Source of the DNA: Fusobacterium sp. DD2
GTDB lineage: Bacteria; Fusobacteriota; Fusobacteriia; Fusobacteriales; Fusobacteriaceae
Direction: 5' to 3'
DNA length: 54,234 bases
Assembly (NCBI RefSeq): GCF_018205345.1
Contig: NZ_JADRHM010000007.1
Span: 1 to 54,234, forward strand
Part shown: positions 21,516 to 39,302 of the stretch, piece by piece
How positions within the stretch are numbered: the stretch's first letter is position 1
Layout: each line of letters begins with the position of its first letter
Made by a program: the position numbers and the translations under genes
The notes under the pieces: model-generated
Told to the model about the DNA's origin: nothing
Database searches by the model: none
The model's input: the letters and a program-made list of their open reading frames with translations, nothing else

Positions 21516-22628
21516 ATGAAAAAAGTTGAACTAAAGACTCCAGCAATAGTGTTAAATTTAAAAGCCTTAAAGAACAATATAAAACTTTATCAGGCATTAT
21601 GTACAAATTATCACAAAGAGATGTGGCCAATGATGAAGACACATAAGAGTATGGAGATCTTGAAAATGCAGGTGGAAGCTGGGGCAACTGGTGTCCTGTG
21701 TGGAACTTTAGATGAAGCTGAAGCATGTGCAGAGAACAATATTCCAAAGATTATGTATGCATACCCTGTGGCAAGTAAAGAGAGCATTGATAGGGTAATA
21801 GCTCTTACTAAGAAAAGTGATTTTATTACAAGAATAGATTCATATGAGGGTGCAAAACTATTAAATGACCAAGCTGTCAAAAATGGAGTTGAGGTAAGCT
21901 ACACAATAATTATAGACAGCGGTCTACATAGATTTGGAATAGCTCCTGAAAAGGTTGTGGAGTTTGCTGACAGGTTAAAAGAGTTTAAGGGATTAAAGTT
22001 CAGAGGTATCTCATCTCATCCAGGACATGTATATGGTGCTACATCTAATGAAGAGATTGAAAGCTATGTAAAAGATGAGTGTGACTCTTTAAACAAAGCA
22101 GTTACATTTTTAAAAGAAGCAGGTTATGAACCTGAGTATGTTACAAGTGGTTCTACACCTACATTTGCTGGTGCTATAACTGATAAGAATATAAATGTAT
22201 ACCATCCTGGTAACTATGTCTTTTTAGATACAATTCAGCTATCTCTGGGAAAAGCCAAAGAGAAAGATTGTGCTCTAAGAGTCTATGCTACAATTATTTC
22301 TCATCCAAGAGAGGATCTCTATCTCTGTGATGCTGGAGCAAAATGCTTAGGACTTGATAAAGGTGCTCATGGGAATTCATCTATTGTTGGATATGGAACT
22401 GTAGTTGGACATCCTGAAGCTATAGTTGACTCACTTTCTGAAGAGGTTGGAAAGATACATATAGATGGAAAGACAGATCTTAAAATAGGAGATAAGATAG
22501 AGATAATTCCAAATCACTCATGTTCTACTGCTAATCTTTGCAGTTATTATACTGTGATTGATGGAGATGAAGTAATTGGGAGCATTGAGGTAGATGTAAG
22601 AGGAAACTCTATAAAATTAGCAAAGTAA
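21516..22628 (+). CDS. D-serine dehydratase/D-threonine aldolase-like PLP enzyme
   Basis: A 370-aa fold-type III PLP enzyme with an N-terminal alanine racemase barrel and a C-terminal metal-binding domain. The PLP lysine is probably Lys41 in MKTHK. The C-terminal PNHSC motif gives a His334-x-Cys336 pair: in this family His-x-Cys is known from zinc-dependent eukaryotic D-serine dehydratase, while D-threonine aldolases have His-x-Asp. D-serine (or a 3-hydroxy-D-amino acid) deamination is therefore favoured, by inference. It is alone in its transcript; a GGGGGAG site precedes the ATG. The divergent XRE-cupin protein is the probable regulator. Confidence 0.85.
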   Translation: MKKVELKTPAIVLNLKALKNNIKLYQALCTNYHKEMWPMMKTHKSMEILKMQVEAGATGVLCGTLDEAEACAENNIPKIMYAYPVASKESIDRVIALTKKSDFITRIDSYEGAKLLNDQAVKNGVEVSYTIIIDSGLHRFGIAPEKVVEFADRLKEFKGLKFRGISSHPGHVYGATSNEEIESYVKDECDSLNKAVTFLKEAGYEPEYVTSGSTPTFAGAITDKNINVYHPGNYVFLDTIQLSLGKAKEKDCALRVYATIISHPREDLYLCDAGAKCLGLDKGAHGNSSIVGYGTVVGHPEAIVDSLSEEVGKIHIDGKTDLKIGDKIEIIPNHSCSTANLCSYYTVIDGDEVIGSIEVDVRGNSIKLAK

Positions 22629-22658
22629 ATGTAAAAAGTTTATATATTAGAGAATTTT
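22629..22658. repeat. Right-end remnant of the 142-bp repeat
   Basis: This stretch matches the last 28 or so bases of the repeat copies that follow, ending in the terminal GAATTTT, but the rest of the unit is missing. It implies a third tandem copy lost or partly deleted here. Confidence 0.6.
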
Positions 22659-22685
22659 ATTCATCTTTTCACAGCATTATAATTT

Positions 22686-22827
22686 AAAATTCACGGCATT
22701 AGAAATTGTTTCGTAATTTATGAAGCGAAGCAGAATACGGAAAAGCCGACTGTCTGAACGAAGTGAGTTTCAAATTCGCTTCCTGTAAGCGAGATAAATG
22801 GAAAAAGTTTATAGATTAGAGAATTTT
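22686..22827 (+). repeat. Dispersed 142-bp repeat, copy 1
   Basis: Starts AAAATTC and ends GAATTTT (terminal inverted repeats). It carries the shared landmarks CATTAGAAATTGTTTCG, AGCGAAGCAGAATAC and CTGAACGAAGTGAGTTTC. It is the most degenerate copy: the inner stem is imperfect. It forms a tandem pair with copy 2, with a period of 169 bases that also includes 27 bases of flanking DNA. No ORF is inside. Confidence 0.85.
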
Positions 22828-22854
22828 ATTCATCTTTTCACAACATTATAATTT

Positions 22855-22996
22855 AAAATTCTTAGCATTAGAAATTGTTTCGTTATTTATGAAGCGAAGC
22901 AGAATACGGAAAATCCGACTGTCTGAACGAAGTGAGTTTCGGATTTTCTTTCTGCAAGCAAAATAAATAGAAAGAATTTATAGCCTAGAGAATTTT
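22855..22996 (+). repeat. Dispersed 142-bp repeat, copy 2
   Basis: Same length and ends as copy 1. The inner stem is complete: GCAGAA pairs with TTCTGC and GAAAATCCGA with TCGGATTTTC, around a loop holding CTGAACGAAGTGAG. An ATTTAT/ATAAAT pair extends the stem outward. Confidence 0.9.
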
Positions 22997-23016
22997 AAAT
23001 TAATTACTCCAGGAAT

Positions 23017-23058
23017 AAAAAAAAAGCTGAGATCCAACTTTTTTCAGTTAATCTCAGC
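23017..23058 (-). terminator. Terminator of the polA-corA operon
   Basis: An 8-bp stem (GCTGAGAT at 23026-23033, ATCTCAGC at 23051-23058) with a smaller inner hairpin (ACT/AGT) is followed on the minus strand by nine T. It lies 11 bases past the corA stop. Confidence 0.85.
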
Positions 23059-32661: not shown

Positions 32662-33564
32662 TTATTTGTTCTTTAATATAGTCTCCCAATTTTCTGGAAA
32701 ACCAATGCATTTTATATCTATATATGAAGCAAACTCATTGAAAACATCTCTTATATCTATTATTATTTTATTATCCCATTCCTCTTTGTCTAAAACTAAA
32801 TATTTCATTACCAATACATAATCAAAAATTTTATTAGTAGTTATATTATTTTCTTTTTTCTTTGCTGGAGTGAAGATTACTTTTGAATTATATAATCTTG
32901 TATCATGTGCCAACATATTTCTAAATCTTCTCATTGCTTCTATCCAATTTGCCAATTGAAATTTACTACAATCATATTCTTTGGCTATTTTCTTTTGTGT
33001 AGGCGTATTTAATAAAGAATAAAAATTTTCTAAATTCCCCAATGTAAAAACTTCTATTGCTACCCATGTGGGATAATAACCTTGATAATTTTGCTTATGA
33101 TGTTGAATAAATGGCAAATCTTCATTATTATCTATATTCTTTTTTACATAACTTATAAACTTAGAATGTTTATCCTTATTTTCAAAATCTCTATCAAAAA
33201 AATAAGAAATATTCCCATTGGGATAATTATGTGAGAAATAATAGGAAATATTAGTTTTTAAACTTCTTTCTATCATTTCCATTGCATATAAAAATATGCT
33301 TCTCAATCTCATATCAAACTTAATTATTTTATATATATGATTAAAAGTTATACCATTTATATAATTATCACTATCTTTTTCCTTAAAGTTATGTAAATAT
33401 CCAGTAATATAATAATAATTTATTCTTTTTAATATTTGTAAAGCATATTCTCTGTCTTCTATAATCAAATTTCTTTTTTCTAATTTGTTTAACTGTTCTT
33501 CAAATGTTGTTGGTTGCTTTAACTGTGAACTAATGAAATCTATACTCCAATGATTTTCAACCAT
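32662..33564 (-). CDS. Abi_2/AbiF-like HEPN protein
   Basis: A 300-aa protein of the Abi_2 group (AbiD/AbiF), known from phage abortive infection. The N-terminal part has the usual PTTFEEQLNKLEKRNLII opening. A conserved helix carries EMIERSLKTNISYYFSH (96-112) and the end of the domain holds RNMLAHD, where Arg215 and His220 form the R-x4-H HEPN ribonuclease motif. It is predicted to cut RNA and stop growth on infection. It lies alone between polA and ssb with its own terminator. The region before it encodes a strong promoter and a small RNA, so it is probably the toxin half of an RNA-controlled pair. A GGGAGAG site lies right after the T8 tract. Confidence 0.88.
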   Translation of the reverse strand: MVENHWSIDFISSQLKQPTTFEEQLNKLEKRNLIIEDREYALQILKRINYYYITGYLHNFKEKDSDNYINGITFNHIYKIIKFDMRLRSIFLYAMEMIERSLKTNISYYFSHNYPNGNISYFFDRDFENKDKHSKFISYVKKNIDNNEDLPFIQHHKQNYQGYYPTWVAIEVFTLGNLENFYSLLNTPTQKKIAKEYDCSKFQLANWIEAMRRFRNMLAHDTRLYNSKVIFTPAKKKENNITTNKIFDYVLVMKYLVLDKEEWDNKIIIDIRDVFNEFASYIDIKCIGFPENWETILKNK

Positions 33565-33955: not shown

Positions 33956-34417
33956 ATGAATACAATAATTCTTACTGGAAGATTAACAAGAGATCCAGAA
34001 TTGAAATTTGGGCAAAGTGGAAAAGCATACTCAAGATTTTCACTTGCTGTAGATAGAGCATTTTCAAAAGATGAAGTTGACTTTATAAACTGTGTTGCTT
34101 TTGGTAAAACAGCAGAATTAATAGGGGAATATTTAAGAAAAGGAAAAAAAGCTGGTGTAACAGGAAGACTTCAGATGAATAGATATGAATTCAATGGGGA
34201 GAAAAGAACTAGCTACGATGTTATCGTTGACACTGTAGAATTCTTAGAACCTAAAAATTCATCTGGTTCATACAATGGTCCAGACCCATATGAACCTTAT
34301 GAACCTGAATACTCAGCTCCAAAACCTACACAATCTCGTGCTGCTGAACCAGATTTCCACAGCGTACCAGATAATGATGTTAGTGAAACTGAAGACGATG
34401 ATGAATTCCCATTCTAG
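33956..34417 (+). CDS. ssb: Single-stranded DNA-binding protein
   Basis: A 153-aa SSB with an N-terminal OB fold (1-105) that opens with the typical NTIILTGRLTRDPEL. A flexible Pro/Glu-rich linker follows, then the acidic tip DDDEFPF that binds partner proteins. It is monocistronic: the gene has its own promoter and terminator and stands outside the usual rpsF-ssb-rpsR group, so it may be an extra copy. Position between an Abi gene and mcrBC is notable, but the sequence itself is ordinary. Confidence 0.95.
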   Translation: MNTIILTGRLTRDPELKFGQSGKAYSRFSLAVDRAFSKDEVDFINCVAFGKTAELIGEYLRKGKKAGVTGRLQMNRYEFNGEKRTSYDVIVDTVEFLEPKNSSGSYNGPDPYEPYEPEYSAPKPTQSRAAEPDFHSVPDNDVSETEDDDEFPF

Positions 34418-34490: not shown

Positions 34491-34648
34491 ATAAAAATAA
34501 AATTCACGGCATTAGAAATTGTTTCGTAATTTATGCAGCGAAACAGAATACAGAAAATTTGACTGTTTGAACGTAGTGAGTTTCAAATTTTCTTTCTGTA
34601 AGCAAAATAAATAGAAAGAATTGATAGCTTAGGGAATTTTATTTTTAT
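34491..34648 (+). repeat. Dispersed repeat, copy 3, with 15-bp terminal inverted repeats
   Basis: The 142-bp unit is 34499-34640. Here the ends extend outward as a perfect 15-bp inverted pair (ATAAAAATAAAATTC at 34491-34505 and its complement at 34634-34648). The inner stem differs from copy 2 but still pairs: ACAGAA with TTCTGT and GAAAATTTGA with TCAAATTTTC. Changes on both arms keep the pairing, which points to selection on a folded nucleic acid. It lies between ssb and mcrC. Confidence 0.9.
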
Positions 34649-34711: not shown

Positions 34712-35986
34712 CTAATTATTATTATAAGACATTTGTAAATGACTTAACAAATTATTTATACTTTGTTCCATATCTTTCAAATCTATAAAGCATATCCTTA
34801 CATTAATATCATGCCCGATATAGCTAATCTCATCATCAGTTATGCCACTCTTGGGATAAAGCAAAAATATATTCTCACAATTATAGAGCTTGGAATAGGC
34901 AAACATCTGATACATATCCCCTTGAGAAATTCCATAATTTGACATATCATTACTAAGTATTTTCCATTTTGTATCCATTATTCCAATAGTTTTTCCATCC
35001 TTTTTAATAACAATATCAGGAATCAATCTAAAACTTCTAGGCTCATCAAAGAGATATTTCCCTTTTGCCTGTAAAGTAACTTCATACCCAAACTCTGCAA
35101 ATTTTTTCTTTATCCATTTTCCAACATAAGCTTCAAATAGCTGCTCCATTGGGAAGAGTAAAGCCCTTGTACTATTATCACCTGAAACTGATGAAAAACT
35201 TTTATCCTTTAATATTATCCAGGACCAATCTATAATACTCTTATAGTGCTTATTCTTTCTGCTTATTACAATCTCTTTGAATTCTTTTTCAATATTTTTC
35301 GTATCTTTAACTCTATCAAAATGTGGAAGCAGTCTTATTGCCAATTTCTGATTTTTAGCATTCCTTGAAATCTTTCTCAATCTCTCTATGCATCTTTTCA
35401 TGACCCTATTTTCAGCTATATCCATATTGTACTCATCAAATTGCATCCTGGTTTTATCTTTTCTGTTGAAATTTTCTTTTACATGTGTAGTTATCTGAAA
35501 TTTCCCTCTGAAAAATCTAAGATTATCTTCCATATTTACATAATCAGATACCAATCCTCTTTTTACTATCTCCATTGCTTCTACAAGATACATGTTGATA
35601 AATATCTCAAAAATATTCATTTCATAGGCTCTTGTGTTGGCACTTCTATATATTTTCATGGGGAATCTGTCCATAGCCTTTATCATATTCATTAAAATTT
35701 CTCTTGTTTCATTAAAGCTATTATATCCAGCTATTTTAGGTAATATCTCTATTTGAAAGCTATTTCCCAGTTCTATTACCCCTACATAGTTTTGAATCTG
35801 AATATATTCTCCAATTTCCCTGTGATAACCTATATCAAAAAAACTTAATGGGCTATCTTCTCCAATATTTTCTTTTGTAAATATAAATCTTTTTAACTTT
35901 TCAAATTCCACTTTTTCAACAAAGCTATCCAATTGGCTGTTAAAACTATGAATTCTATCATACTCCCTAACTACTATTTTTTTCAT
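34712..35986 (-). CDS. mcrC: McrC, nuclease subunit of the McrBC restriction system
   Basis: The endonuclease partner of McrB, which cuts DNA with modified cytosines between two recognition sites. About 424 aa. The C-terminal PD-(D/E)xK nuclease is visible as IPDIVIKKDG followed by IMDTKWK. The N-terminal part has the family look (IGEYIQIQNYVGVIEL, QIEILPKI). The frame extends to a TTG at 35995 that overlaps the mcrB stop. AAGGA sits directly before that TTG and nine bases before the ATG at 35986, so the ATG is preferred. Translation is coupled to mcrB. Confidence 0.92.
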   Translation of the reverse strand: MKKIVVREYDRIHSFNSQLDSFVEKVEFEKLKRFIFTKENIGEDSPLSFFDIGYHREIGEYIQIQNYVGVIELGNSFQIEILPKIAGYNSFNETREILMNMIKAMDRFPMKIYRSANTRAYEMNIFEIFINMYLVEAMEIVKRGLVSDYVNMEDNLRFFRGKFQITTHVKENFNRKDKTRMQFDEYNMDIAENRVMKRCIERLRKISRNAKNQKLAIRLLPHFDRVKDTKNIEKEFKEIVISRKNKHYKSIIDWSWIILKDKSFSSVSGDNSTRALLFPMEQLFEAYVGKWIKKKFAEFGYEVTLQAKGKYLFDEPRSFRLIPDIVIKKDGKTIGIMDTKWKILSNDMSNYGISQGDMYQMFAYSKLYNCENIFLLYPKSGITDDEISYIGHDINVRICFIDLKDMEQSINNLLSHLQMSYNNN

Positions 35987-35991
35987 AGTTA

Positions 35992-38900
35992 TCAATCCTT
36001 AATATTCTTTTGATATATTCCAATATAGCTGTCGGGATTTAAAAATGCACCATCCTGTATCTCATATATTTTTTCTGAAAAATCAAAACTTTCAGTGCTA
36101 TCTCCAAATAATCCCTTTTCAACCTTCTTATCAATTATAAATTTCACACTATCCTCTTTCTGATTGTCCCCTAATACAAGTTGTATTTTTTCATAATCCT
36201 CATAGAAGTACTCCTGTAATAAAGGGATAATTTTTTCTCTAAATATCAGTGCTAAATTTTCTATACTATTGTCATCTTTTAATGGCATAAAATATGAATG
36301 ACCTATTGTATGATCTCTATCATATAGGTAAGCTATCCTTTTATTCATTATCTCAAACATGTTTTTTATATCTACATCTTCAACCTTAATACCTTCAAGT
36401 AAAGCTGAATCAGGCATCATCTCTTTAAATACAAATCTTCTTCTTAATGCACTGTCCATTATTGCAATAGAACGGTCCGCTGTATTCATTGTTCCAAGAA
36501 TATAAAGATTATCAGGTATTGAAAACTCATCCCCAGAGTATGGCAAAATAGCCAAAGTCTCTTCAGGTTTTCCCAGCCTTTTACTCTCTTCAATAAGAGT
36601 TATAAGTTCTCCAAATATTTTTGAGATATTTCCTCTGTTTATCTCATCAATTATAAAAACATATGGTTTTGGATTTTCTTTTTCTTTATCTATTATACTT
36701 TTGAGTTCTTTTCTATACTCCTCTTCTGAATATCCTATTTTTTTAAATAATTCAAGATATTTATTCTTTTCATTCATTGCAGCAGGTGGAAAAACTGTAT
36801 ATCTGGTAAATATCTTTTTGTTATTTAAATCAAAAACATCTACCTCTTCATTCTTTTTTATATACCTAATCTTCCTCATTCTTGGATAATCTGGAAAAAC
36901 ATCTTCAGAATAATCATAATCGCTTTCCACTATTCCTATTCCATCAACTAATCCCTCTTGATTTTTAAAAATCAGTACAATATCCCCAATCTGCATCCTT
37001 ACTTTCATATTTTTAACTGATGATTGTTCTTCAAATTCATCAGCTGTTTCTACGTTGTTAACATCCCAACCGATTCTTATTTCATCATGATCAAAACAAT
37101 ACTCTTTCAAATCCTGTTTTTCGTTTTTTAAATGTACACACCATATTACTGGAGCCCTTTTTTCTAAAAATACACTCTTTTCATCTAATATATTAGTTTT
37201 GCTTTCTATCCCCTTTGCTTTTTTACAAAAGGTCTTAAATATTCCATCTTTCAACTCATAATCAAGCTTATTATCTTCATCAAAGCAAGGTTTTATCCCC
37301 TCGATAAATTCCTCATAGCTATATGATTGATGAAATGTACTGAATTTTATCCTTTCTCCTTCCTGTAATTCTGCATATCTTTTTGAAATATCCTCATATT
37401 TTTCTTTTTTAACTTCTTCTATACTTTTCCCATCACAAATTGCTACTGCATATATTTTAGTATTATATGTTTTCCCAGTTCCTGGTGGTCCATAAAGTAT
37501 AATGTTTTTGTTTTTAACCATTTCCACTTCTCCCCTTTGCACAGCTATAGATAGTTCAATCAAATTATCATAATCTAAATTTCCTGAATCTAGCTCACTG
37601 TTTATAATCTTACATATTTTTAGATAATCTTCCCCAGATATCTTGTTTCTAAATCCCTCTATAGTGCTTACTGCCTCTTTATTTAAGCCATTTAATTTAG
37701 TTAGAAAATTTCTTGCCTTTCCTTCAAAATAGAAAAAGTTCAAAGGTCTCATCCAGAAAAGCCCACAGGTTATGTTGGTTTTCACCCCTTTAAAAGTCTG
37801 GAGCTTATCAAATGACTGTATAAACCTCTCTCTATTATTTTTATTCTCTTTTTTACTATAATCTATTGCTATCTCGTAAAAATTCCACAGTTCATCTATA
37901 ACTACCTCTTTGTTAGAATCATTGATATCATAGAAAAGTGTATGAAGATTACTAAAAATTGGCAGCCCTGGAAATTCTTTAGGTACATCTGCTTTGATAT
38001 TTAAATACTCCTTAAATTTTGTAAGAAAAGTTATTCTGCTCTCATCTGCCATTGTTCTGGTAAACATTGCAAAAATTGTAAAAGGATCCAGATTTGTTGG
38101 ATCTTCTCCCGTTTCTGTAAATTTTGATATATCTTTCCATATGATTCTAAATATCTCCATTCCCATATCAGCAATAACTTTTCTGTTATTTTTATATTCT
38201 AAGAGTTTATCTGCAAACTCTTGAAAGTATTCTACCCACACTGGATAATTTGTTTCATTGTCCTGCTTTTCATAGGCATTCCAAGAAAGTTCCACAAAAT
38301 TTTTAAATTCAAATCTATTATTTTCTATTTCTTTTTTTAAACTATTACAAAATTCAAGATATTTTTCCCCTGTTAATTCATCTTCCAGTGAACTAAGCTG
38401 ATTTTTTATATCTTCTGAGAAACCCTTATTTTTTAATATAAACTCACGATTTTTGCTATCAAGATTTATATAGGTATCAGGTCTTATCCAGAATAAACCA
38501 AGAGTTATGTTATATCTAATTCCCTTTATTTTTAAACAATCATCCAGACTCATTATAAATGTATTTGTATTAGTTTCATTCGCTTCTTCTGAGTAATTGA
38601 CTGCTGCTTTAAATAACCTCCACAAATTTGGTATATCACTTTCTTCTCTTTCATCTTCAAATTTATAAAAAAGTGCTGCCTGATTATTCAGCAGTGGAAT
38701 GCCTCCAAAGTTTATCTCATCTACTTTTTCATTTATATCAAAAATTCTCTTAATATTTTCAACTATTTTCTTTCTATTTTCATTCGTTAAACCTCTATTA
38801 AAGATACCAAATATCGTAAATGGATCTATGTCTGTTGTTCTTTCTCCATTTTTTCCTAAATAATTAGATTTTATCTTACTCTCTTCTAATGTTTTATAAA

Positions 38901-38994
38901 TATTATCCAAAAGTAATTCCCTTCTGTTTTCATATTCAACAAGCTTAGTAGCAAACTCCTTGTAAAAATCTATCCAAGTAAAATTTTTCTCCAT
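35992..38994 (-). CDS. mcrB: McrB-type AAA+ GTPase with duplicated N-terminal module and inserted PUA/EVE-like domain
   Basis: The motor subunit of a modification-dependent restriction system. Two related modules come first: residues 7-240 and 253-485 both open with W(I/V)-x-(F/Y)-x-x-EFA-x-K-L and share DPFTIF, FY-x4-D and LFW(I/M)RP landmarks. The AAA+ domain has Walker A GPPGTGKT (502-509), Walker B FIIDEINRG (780-788) and the McrB motif NTADRS (837-842). Between Walker A and B, about 600-765, is an extra block with IRIGWDV, MQIGDIVLIFKN and VDGIGIVES, like the PUA/EVE fold that reads modified bases. At 1000 aa it is twice the size of E. coli McrB. A GGGGGAGG site precedes the ATG. Family is certain; the domain reading of the insert is my inference. 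Confidence 0.9.
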   Translation of the reverse strand: MEKNFTWIDFYKEFATKLVEYENRRELLLDNIYKTLEESKIKSNYLGKNGERTTDIDPFTIFGIFNRGLTNENRKKIVENIKRIFDINEKVDEINFGGIPLLNNQAALFYKFEDEREESDIPNLWRLFKAAVNYSEEANETNTNTFIMSLDDCLKIKGIRYNITLGLFWIRPDTYINLDSKNREFILKNKGFSEDIKNQLSSLEDELTGEKYLEFCNSLKKEIENNRFEFKNFVELSWNAYEKQDNETNYPVWVEYFQEFADKLLEYKNNRKVIADMGMEIFRIIWKDISKFTETGEDPTNLDPFTIFAMFTRTMADESRITFLTKFKEYLNIKADVPKEFPGLPIFSNLHTLFYDINDSNKEVVIDELWNFYEIAIDYSKKENKNNRERFIQSFDKLQTFKGVKTNITCGLFWMRPLNFFYFEGKARNFLTKLNGLNKEAVSTIEGFRNKISGEDYLKICKIINSELDSGNLDYDNLIELSIAVQRGEVEMVKNKNIILYGPPGTGKTYNTKIYAVAICDGKSIEEVKKEKYEDISKRYAELQEGERIKFSTFHQSYSYEEFIEGIKPCFDEDNKLDYELKDGIFKTFCKKAKGIESKTNILDEKSVFLEKRAPVIWCVHLKNEKQDLKEYCFDHDEIRIGWDVNNVETADEFEEQSSVKNMKVRMQIGDIVLIFKNQEGLVDGIGIVESDYDYSEDVFPDYPRMRKIRYIKKNEEVDVFDLNNKKIFTRYTVFPPAAMNEKNKYLELFKKIGYSEEEYRKELKSIIDKEKENPKPYVFIIDEINRGNISKIFGELITLIEESKRLGKPEETLAILPYSGDEFSIPDNLYILGTMNTADRSIAIMDSALRRRFVFKEMMPDSALLEGIKVEDVDIKNMFEIMNKRIAYLYDRDHTIGHSYFMPLKDDNSIENLALIFREKIIPLLQEYFYEDYEKIQLVLGDNQKEDSVKFIIDKKVEKGLFGDSTESFDFSEKIYEIQDGAFLNPDSYIGIYQKNIKD

Positions 38995-39106
38995 ATTCCT
39001 CCCCCTTAATTCTGTAATCTCTAGCCCTACACTTCTATTTTACCATTTATTTTTTTTATTTCATCTAAAATATGGATTTTTCTATTATACTGTTCTTATA
39101 AAAAAT

Positions 39107-39249
39107 AAAATTCACGGGCATTAGAAATTGTTTCGTAATTTATGTAGCGAAACAGAATACTGAAAATTCGACTGTCTGAACGAAGTGAGTTTCGGATTTT
39201 CTTTCTGTGAGCAAAATAAATAGAAAAAATTGATAGCTAAGAGAATTTT
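39107..39249 (+). repeat. Dispersed repeat, copy 4
   Basis: A 143-bp copy (one extra G near the left end) in the same orientation as copy 3, on the other side of mcrBC. The inner stem pairs ACAGAA with TTCTGT and GAAAATTCGA with TCGGATTTTC through one G-T pair. The ends extend outward as an almost perfect inverted repeat. Confidence 0.9.
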
Positions 39250-39265
39250 ATTTTATAACATTAAA

Positions 39266-39302
39266 TAAAAAAAAGCTGTGCAAATAATTATTCACACAGC
39301 TT
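39266..39302 (-). terminator. Terminator of the PBP1A gene
   Basis: An 8-bp stem (AAGCTGTG at 39273-39280, CACAGCTT at 39295-39302) is followed on the minus strand by an unbroken T run. It lies five bases past the stop. Confidence 0.85.

Follow-up and report, generated by a model that had tools for sequence, protein, structure and literature searches.

An McrBC operon of Fusobacterium sp. DD2 with a predicted YTH/EVE-fold reader inside the McrB motor and a doubled N-terminal module

McrBC of Escherichia coli K-12, like the operon described here, combines a GTPase motor carrying an NxxD signature with the McrC nuclease. Three papers, which we cite for individual passages, provide the background to our comparison. 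The reader domain of Thermococcus gammatolerans McrB is reported to bind N6-methyladenine (m6A) in DNA (Bell 2020, PMC7641849); PcdA of Staphylococcus aureus is described as an McrB-family protein that bears two EVE domains in tandem at its N-terminus, has a degenerate motor and lacks McrC (PMC10602043); and the definition of CoCoNuT systems includes an NxD signature (PMC11090510). In the last of these papers, a single sentence of section 6 also says of the GTPase domains of McrB that they 'frequently contained insertions', 'likely encoding specificity domains' (Bell et al. 2024, PMC11090510), so that the theme of McrB inserts is already known. Here, we analysed a 54,234-nucleotide stretch of Fusobacterium sp. 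DD2 (contig NZ_JADRHM010000007.1, positions 1 to 54,234; hereafter, the window), in which an mcrBC operon encodes an McrB with a domain inserted into its motor and with two copies (N1 and N2) of an N-terminal module, the N-module. The position and identity of this insert go beyond what the cited passages of Bell et al. 2024 (PMC11090510) contain.

The mcrBC operon and its inserted domain

Both genes lie on the minus strand, with the following features (aa, amino acid positions in McrB):

35992–38994, minus strand: mcrB, encoding N1, N2 and an AAA+ motor with a reader inserted between Walker A and Walker B (ATG start, 1000 aa)
38284–38979, minus strand: N1, aa 6–237 (all-helical model, no Pfam family, D179 kept)
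37549–38241, minus strand: N2, aa 252–482 (diverged copy; E424 in place of D179)
37468–37491, minus strand: Walker A, GPPGTGKT, aa 502–509 (motif read in McrB)
36691–37209, minus strand: inserted domain of predicted YTH/EVE fold, the putative reader, aa about 596–768 (from profile, model and motif spacing)
36634–36663, minus strand: Walker B, YVFIIDEINR, aa 778–787 (motif read in McrB)
36475–36486, minus strand: McrB signature NTAD (NxxD type), aa 837–840, within TMNTADR at 835 (motif read in McrB)
34712–35995, minus strand: mcrC (PF10117, E 4.9e-88; nuclease motif PD-x(n)-DTK seen in the sequence)

An earlier, sequence-only reading of this DNA had called the larger gene McrB, and comparison with solved structures agrees: the closest to its motor are McrB of T. 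gammatolerans (6ut3, E 8.5e-60) and of E. coli (6hz4, E 8e-37), and the hallmarks of the AAA+ GTPases of the McrB family—Walker A, Walker B and the NxxD signature—are all present. The mcrC gene adjoins mcrB downstream on the same strand, looks intact and is the only match to PF10117 in the 2.36-Mb genome; its start is more likely the ATG at 35986 than the TTG at 35995. The DNA polymerase I of this genome has its best match in the plasmid collection in that of F. vincentii, with 55% identity, which makes a relative of Fusobacterium the probable host. On sequence grounds, mcrB and mcrC are a two-gene McrBC-type (type IV) restriction operon.

For comparison, contigs from 84,980 species were scanned for the N-module, yielding 349 pattern matches and 291 relatives. 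The best 80 of the 291, caught by two peptide patterns and ranked by similarity to N1, were kept and, together with seven relatives from a scan of viral contigs, make up the 87 open reading frames (ORFs) considered throughout. In 75 of the 81 ORFs with both Walker motifs these are separated by 73–104 residues, and in the other six by 266–276. With a span of 276 residues, the window McrB must therefore contain an insert of about 170–190 residues, in line with the initial proposal that a further domain interrupts its AAA+ core at this point.

We modelled the insert with AlphaFold from an alignment of 77 rows, obtaining a mean predicted local distance difference test score (pLDDT) of 73.3, with core strands mostly at 86–92. 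The best Foldseek match of this model was the EVE-HNH protein VcaM4I (E 3.8e-4), followed by YTHDF2 (E 5.5e-4). Comparison by VIA returned the YTH domain of Mmi1 (Z 11.4; 2.7 Å over 114 aligned residues), the EVE protein PH1033 (Z 10.2; 2.9 Å, 112 aligned) and 6p0f, the N-terminal domain of T. gammatolerans McrB (Z 9.2; 3.0 Å, 123 aligned). Judged by its model, the insert is a YTH/EVE-fold domain. The PADLOC candidate family PDC-S02 matches all 77 members of the reader alignment, and a search of PDB sequences with the reader profile gave nothing usable.

Positions 643, 693, 695 and 711, which are W, Y, Y and Y in the window McrB, are aromatic in all seven in-motor readers of the alignment, a count made on sequence. 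Among 70 front-placed readers, an aromatic residue occupies position 643 in 90% and each of 693, 695 and 711 in 100%; W618 is kept in six of the seven in-motor and in 70/70 front-placed readers. At the level of fold, the idea of a PUA/EVE-like reader within the motor is thus borne out by the model's matches to YTH, EVE and 6p0f, and the outcome that would have contradicted it, a plain AAA+ insertion devoid of an aromatic pocket, is disfavoured.

The closest reader folds by Z are those of RNA m6A readers, which raises the question of whether modified RNA, as proposed for CoCoNuTs, rather than DNA might be the target. We consider this very improbable: the signature is of the NxxD and not the NxD type, the McrB reader 6p0f shares this fold, and the operon has no helicase or coiled-coil partner gene.

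Two placements of the reader

The insert is not confined to the window and was found in nine other McrB relatives that we examined. Across the 87 ORFs, a reader precedes an uninterrupted motor in 67 and lies between Walker A and Walker B in six; three have a reader but no visible Walker pair, and in eleven no reader was seen. A profile built from 16 in-motor readers found all 71 front-placed reader stretches (worst E 6.4e-10), the reverse profile found all 16 in-motor readers (worst E 2.1e-7), and the in-motor profile matched nothing in two control files, one of neighbour ORFs and glycosylases and one of N-modules. These reciprocal profile matches show that in-motor and front-placed readers share ancestry.

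In a tree of 100 motors from which the insert had been removed, 16 in-motor proteins and five without a reader fell on one side of a branch (Shimodaira–Hasegawa-like approximate likelihood ratio test, 99), and 69 front-placed and ten reader-less proteins on the other. The tree comes from a quick search and contains several long branches; inserts were cut by motif, since the motor-profile alignment had lost the P-loop half, and at a fixed length where the motif was not found. This split argues that placement inside the motor is old and common to the whole branch, and that motors of both kinds have been paired with the N-module. Some in-motor readers occur in proteins that lack an N-module, for instance on plasmids of Priestia and Exiguobacterium.

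Could the insert do no more than decorate the AAA+ domain, without reading anything? It does sit inside the motor, and some members of the same branch, such as L050, lack it. Still, it is the same domain as the front-placed readers in 71/71 comparisons, it has the YTH/EVE fold in its model and its aromatic residues are conserved, making this alternative, to our minds, highly implausible; we continue to regard the insert as a putative reader.

Other arrangements were seen along the way. Two Methanobrevibacter proteins (L092 and L104) have two readers before the motor, one on each side of the N-module. L050, from Lachnospiraceae NC2004, combines an N-module with a motor of the in-motor branch that lacks the insert, and about 160 residues ahead of its P-loop are unassigned; its reader was possibly lost or relocated.

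The doubled N-terminal module

N1 and N2 align with 76 of 235 residues identical (32%; BLASTP E 3e-48), with an alignment score of 410, where 1000 shuffles averaged 41 and never exceeded 73. The duplication noticed in the sequence-only reading is thereby upheld, the relatedness of the two modules having been decided by sequence alignment and not by superposition. As the copies are just 32% identical, we rejected the idea that faulty assembly had produced the doubling.

The two copies are unequal. Taking as conserved the 57 positions kept at ≥85% in 87 other, single-module proteins, N1 retains 49 and N2 31, the lowest count among 89 modules; this count favours N1, because the module set was collected with N1, and conservation near residues 55–62 and 96–104 is partly the product of selection, because relatives were caught by peptide patterns there. 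Replacements in N2 at conserved sites include D55 to N, N66 to T, N73 to S, R116 to N, D120 to V and D179 to E; N2 has lost much of what modules of the N1 type conserve. In a tree of modules, the rows nearest to N1 by path are L033 and L031, each with a single module and an in-motor reader. N2 forms a long branch (2.09). Constraining N1 and N2 together was not rejected (approximately unbiased test, P = 0.316), so these data neither show nor exclude a derivation of N2 from N1.

The low count of conserved positions and the long branch would suit a non-functional remnant of a duplication. Against this, N2 is full length and in frame, keeps its hydrophobic core and the W, P and F landmarks, and has no stop or large deletion. 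We therefore rate a remnant as unlikely, if by no means negligible, and prefer to see N2 as a diverged copy with a role of its own.

As far as our scans reach, the doubling is peculiar to this protein. None of the 87 homologous ORFs has two N-modules, a count in which any tandem among the remaining 211 relatives would have escaped notice and in which L030 is a truncated copy. In the window's phylum, three of 98 genomes have the N-module, doubled solely in the window's own genome. In another class, 13 of 391 genomes have it, with no tandem in any of 14 places; at least three of these 13 genomes also supplied members of the 87. A tandem query matched 25 plasmid records, in which every place among the matches listed spans at most one module of DNA. 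A search of phages gave no match. Within the genomes, plasmids and phages scanned, the doubled N-module is found in this McrB only.

Searches with the whole protein were also made. One covering 120 relatives gave a match in ten genomes, including the window's own, and 282 plasmid records matched, ten of which were examined; a whole-protein scan of genome contigs found no relative, the peptides chosen for it probably having been too specific. In the parts of the literature consulted, which do not include the census announced by Bell et al., we recognised no description of the N-module or of the present architecture.

What the N-module itself may be was approached through its model and its genomic company. 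The AlphaFold model of N1 is confident (pLDDT 91.9; predicted template modelling score 0.91) and all-helical, with 11 helices. Profile searches returned no significant Pfam family, no PADLOC family and no PDB sequence relative, and the model matched nothing among viral structures below E 0.8.

The top PDB match of the N1 model by Foldseek is the Ogg-type 8-oxoguanine glycosylase 3fhg (E 0.4; template modelling (TM) scores 0.33/0.37), and 28 of the 50 listed VIA matches are HhH-GPD glycosylases (OGG1, MutY, MagIII, Ogg), mostly aligned over most of the module. Moreover, D179 is invariant in all of the 87 relatives that have a residue there, and in the model it follows a helix-turn-helix stretch and immediately precedes a helix. 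The catalytic Asp of HhH-GPD glycosylases is found at a similar site, an equivalence that none of our alignments proves. On this basis, and with Ogg sequences at ranks 2–7 when 475 neighbour ORFs were ranked against the N-module profile by HMMER at maximum sensitivity, the N-modules might be divergent relatives of these enzymes, acting as base-flipping sensors or, in the case of N1, even as an active glycosylase working with the nuclease.

The remaining evidence argues the other way. The best Z of N1 to HhH-GPD glycosylases is a weak 4.4 (root-mean-square deviation 4.6–5.2 Å over 153–159 residues), and this, like the TM-scores and the Foldseek E value, is under the level expected of a common fold. 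The top score in the HMMER ranking went to an unrelated neighbour ORF. Profile–profile values of 0.061 for Ogg and 0.82 for Nth are at chance level, since a reversed profile scored 0.039 with Nth; hhalign did not reproduce the high ranks of Ogg, and its medians (Ogg 16.7, Nth 14.6) are near the background of 14.1, with the 20 Ogg entries representing one family. The Ogg alignments fall mostly on a C-terminal stretch outside the Asp motif, none of the 89 modules matches Pfam HhH-GPD or Ogg-HhH, and no viral structure was matched. With the sequence tests at or just above chance, we treat the resemblance as a lead only and are doubtful that the N-modules are glycosylase relatives.

Genomic company points to a module used in several defence settings. 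A McrC-like gene lies within 400 nucleotides downstream on the same strand in 71 of the 87 N-module ORFs. Elsewhere, a Parabacteroides plasmid encodes a protein of the candidate defence family PDC-S15 in which the module is joined to an FRG domain (L128:4989–6473; E 1e-39), and Deinococcus psychrotolerans has it joined to an ATPase-like protein, with BREX-annotated genes nearby (L129:6001–7953; E 9e-60). Because of these two fusions, the N-module looks like a portable sensor. On the D. psychrotolerans plasmid unnamed3 (L129, L015), a block of genes for a BREX-type ATP-binding protein, a DEAD/DEAH helicase and an HNH protein occurs twice in tandem, each copy followed by an N-module protein, the second of which is an McrB.

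A module that precedes several effectors—McrB, the FRG protein and the AAA-like protein beside BREX-annotated genes—is also what one would expect of a trigger that binds protein, be it a phage component, a partner or another McrB, leaving the in-motor domain alone to read DNA; in keeping with this, no DNA-binding family matched the N-module. Conversely, 73 of the 87 proteins that bear the module are McrBs in which the motor is complete and accompanied by a base reader, and the resemblance to glycosylases, weak as it is, speaks for DNA. A purely protein-binding role is a serious contender, albeit not the outcome we expect, and we retain N1 as a candidate sensor of nucleic acid or invader.

Proposed mechanism and comparison with known systems

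The best explanation, which we hold to be probable, is a type IV McrBC system with an in-motor reader, with N1 as a second sensor, N2 as a tuning or spacing copy and McrC as the nuclease. McrB would form a GTP-driven AAA+ ring, in each subunit of which the predicted YTH/EVE-fold domain is lodged between the Walker B strand and the helix preceding it. There, the domain may flip out a modified base or hold it beside the ring, such that recognition, coupled to GTP hydrolysis, would be part of the motor proper instead of being tethered ahead of it. N1 may serve as an additional, separate sensor that detects nucleic acid or an invader and can move among defence proteins; N2 most probably adjusts the action or spacing of N1 and would not read the same thing; and McrC would be the nuclease that the motor activates, presumably on DNA. 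What the analysis established of this account is which domains are present and in which order, how the insert is predicted to fold, that in-motor and front-placed readers have a common ancestry and that N2 has diverged.

Several observations weigh against it. The insert model has low confidence at its residues 1–24 and in a loop at about 57–76, and the Pfam EVE match of the insert (14.3 bits, E 0.042) is below the curated cut-off of 23 bits; at E 0.1, only two of the 77 members of the reader alignment match this family at all. Of the structural and profile evidence for the insert, the YTH/EVE fold stood and the Pfam assignment did not. In addition, the window reader has Y711 where front-placed readers have W in 70/70, a sensor role for N1 is suggested by domain company alone, and none of the other matching genomes among the 120 relatives has the same full architecture. 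Taken together, what the sequence-only reading had observed was confirmed and its interpretation partly supported.

A bolder version would make the N-module a new family of glycosylase-like, base-flipping sensors across McrBC and FRG systems and would have McrB read invading DNA three times: with an intact module, with a diverged one of changed specificity and with the YTH/EVE domain in the ring. GTP hydrolysis and cutting would then be limited to DNA that bears the correct set of marks. We think this version improbable.

The surroundings of the operon contain further genes and repeats. About 1.1 kb beyond mcrC lies an AbiD/Abi_2 abortive-infection gene (32662–33564, minus strand; PADLOC AbiD, E 4.5e-83), with ssb (33956–34417, plus strand) between the two. 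Two direct copies of a short interspersed repeat (34493–34645 and 39095–39275), 92% identical across their shared part and with 12–14-bp inverted ends (AAAATAAAATTC), flank mcrBC; the repeat has 42 matches in the genome, and more pieces lie at 22619–23024. It resembles a miniature inverted-repeat transposable element and may have helped the operon to move.

Set against known systems, this McrB with its in-motor reader and doubled front combines a partly known theme with a rare architecture and an unannotated N-module family. T. gammatolerans McrBC (6ut3, 6ut5) is the best PDB match of the window motor, and its reader 6p0f matches the insert model in fold (Z 9.2); there, however, the reader is N-terminal, whereas in the window McrB it lies inside the motor with two helical modules ahead. 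In place of DUF3578, the N-terminal domain of the E. coli K-12 type, for which a Pfam search found no match in the window McrB, this protein has the N-modules and the inserted reader. PcdA likewise has tandem N-terminal domains; those of the window McrB are helical, its motor motifs are intact and McrC is present. We rejected membership in the PcdA-like group, given the all-helical (and not tandem EVE) N-terminal module and the intact Walker motifs, and in the CoCoNuTs, as the signature NTAD is of the NxxD type. The PDC-S15/FRG-domain candidate defence protein shares the N-module, with an FRG domain as effector and no motor.

Closest in layout are six proteins—L031 of Intestinibacter bartlettii, L033 of Clostridium sp., L103, L066 of Romboutsia, L074 and L083—that have the N-module, an in-motor reader and McrC downstream in 6/6 cases, and that differ from the window McrB in having one N-module, not two. 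The McrBs L007, L008 and L024 share its N-module and reader domain, with the reader ahead of an uninterrupted motor and on a separate branch of the motor tree. These natural variants, both with the same N-module, would allow a reader in the ring to be tested against one tethered in front for its coupling to GTP hydrolysis. They also raise the question of what the unannotated N-module, with 291 relatives in one scan, senses; it is a domain family worth a structure, and the doubled module of the window McrB offers an internal comparison between an intact and a diverged copy.

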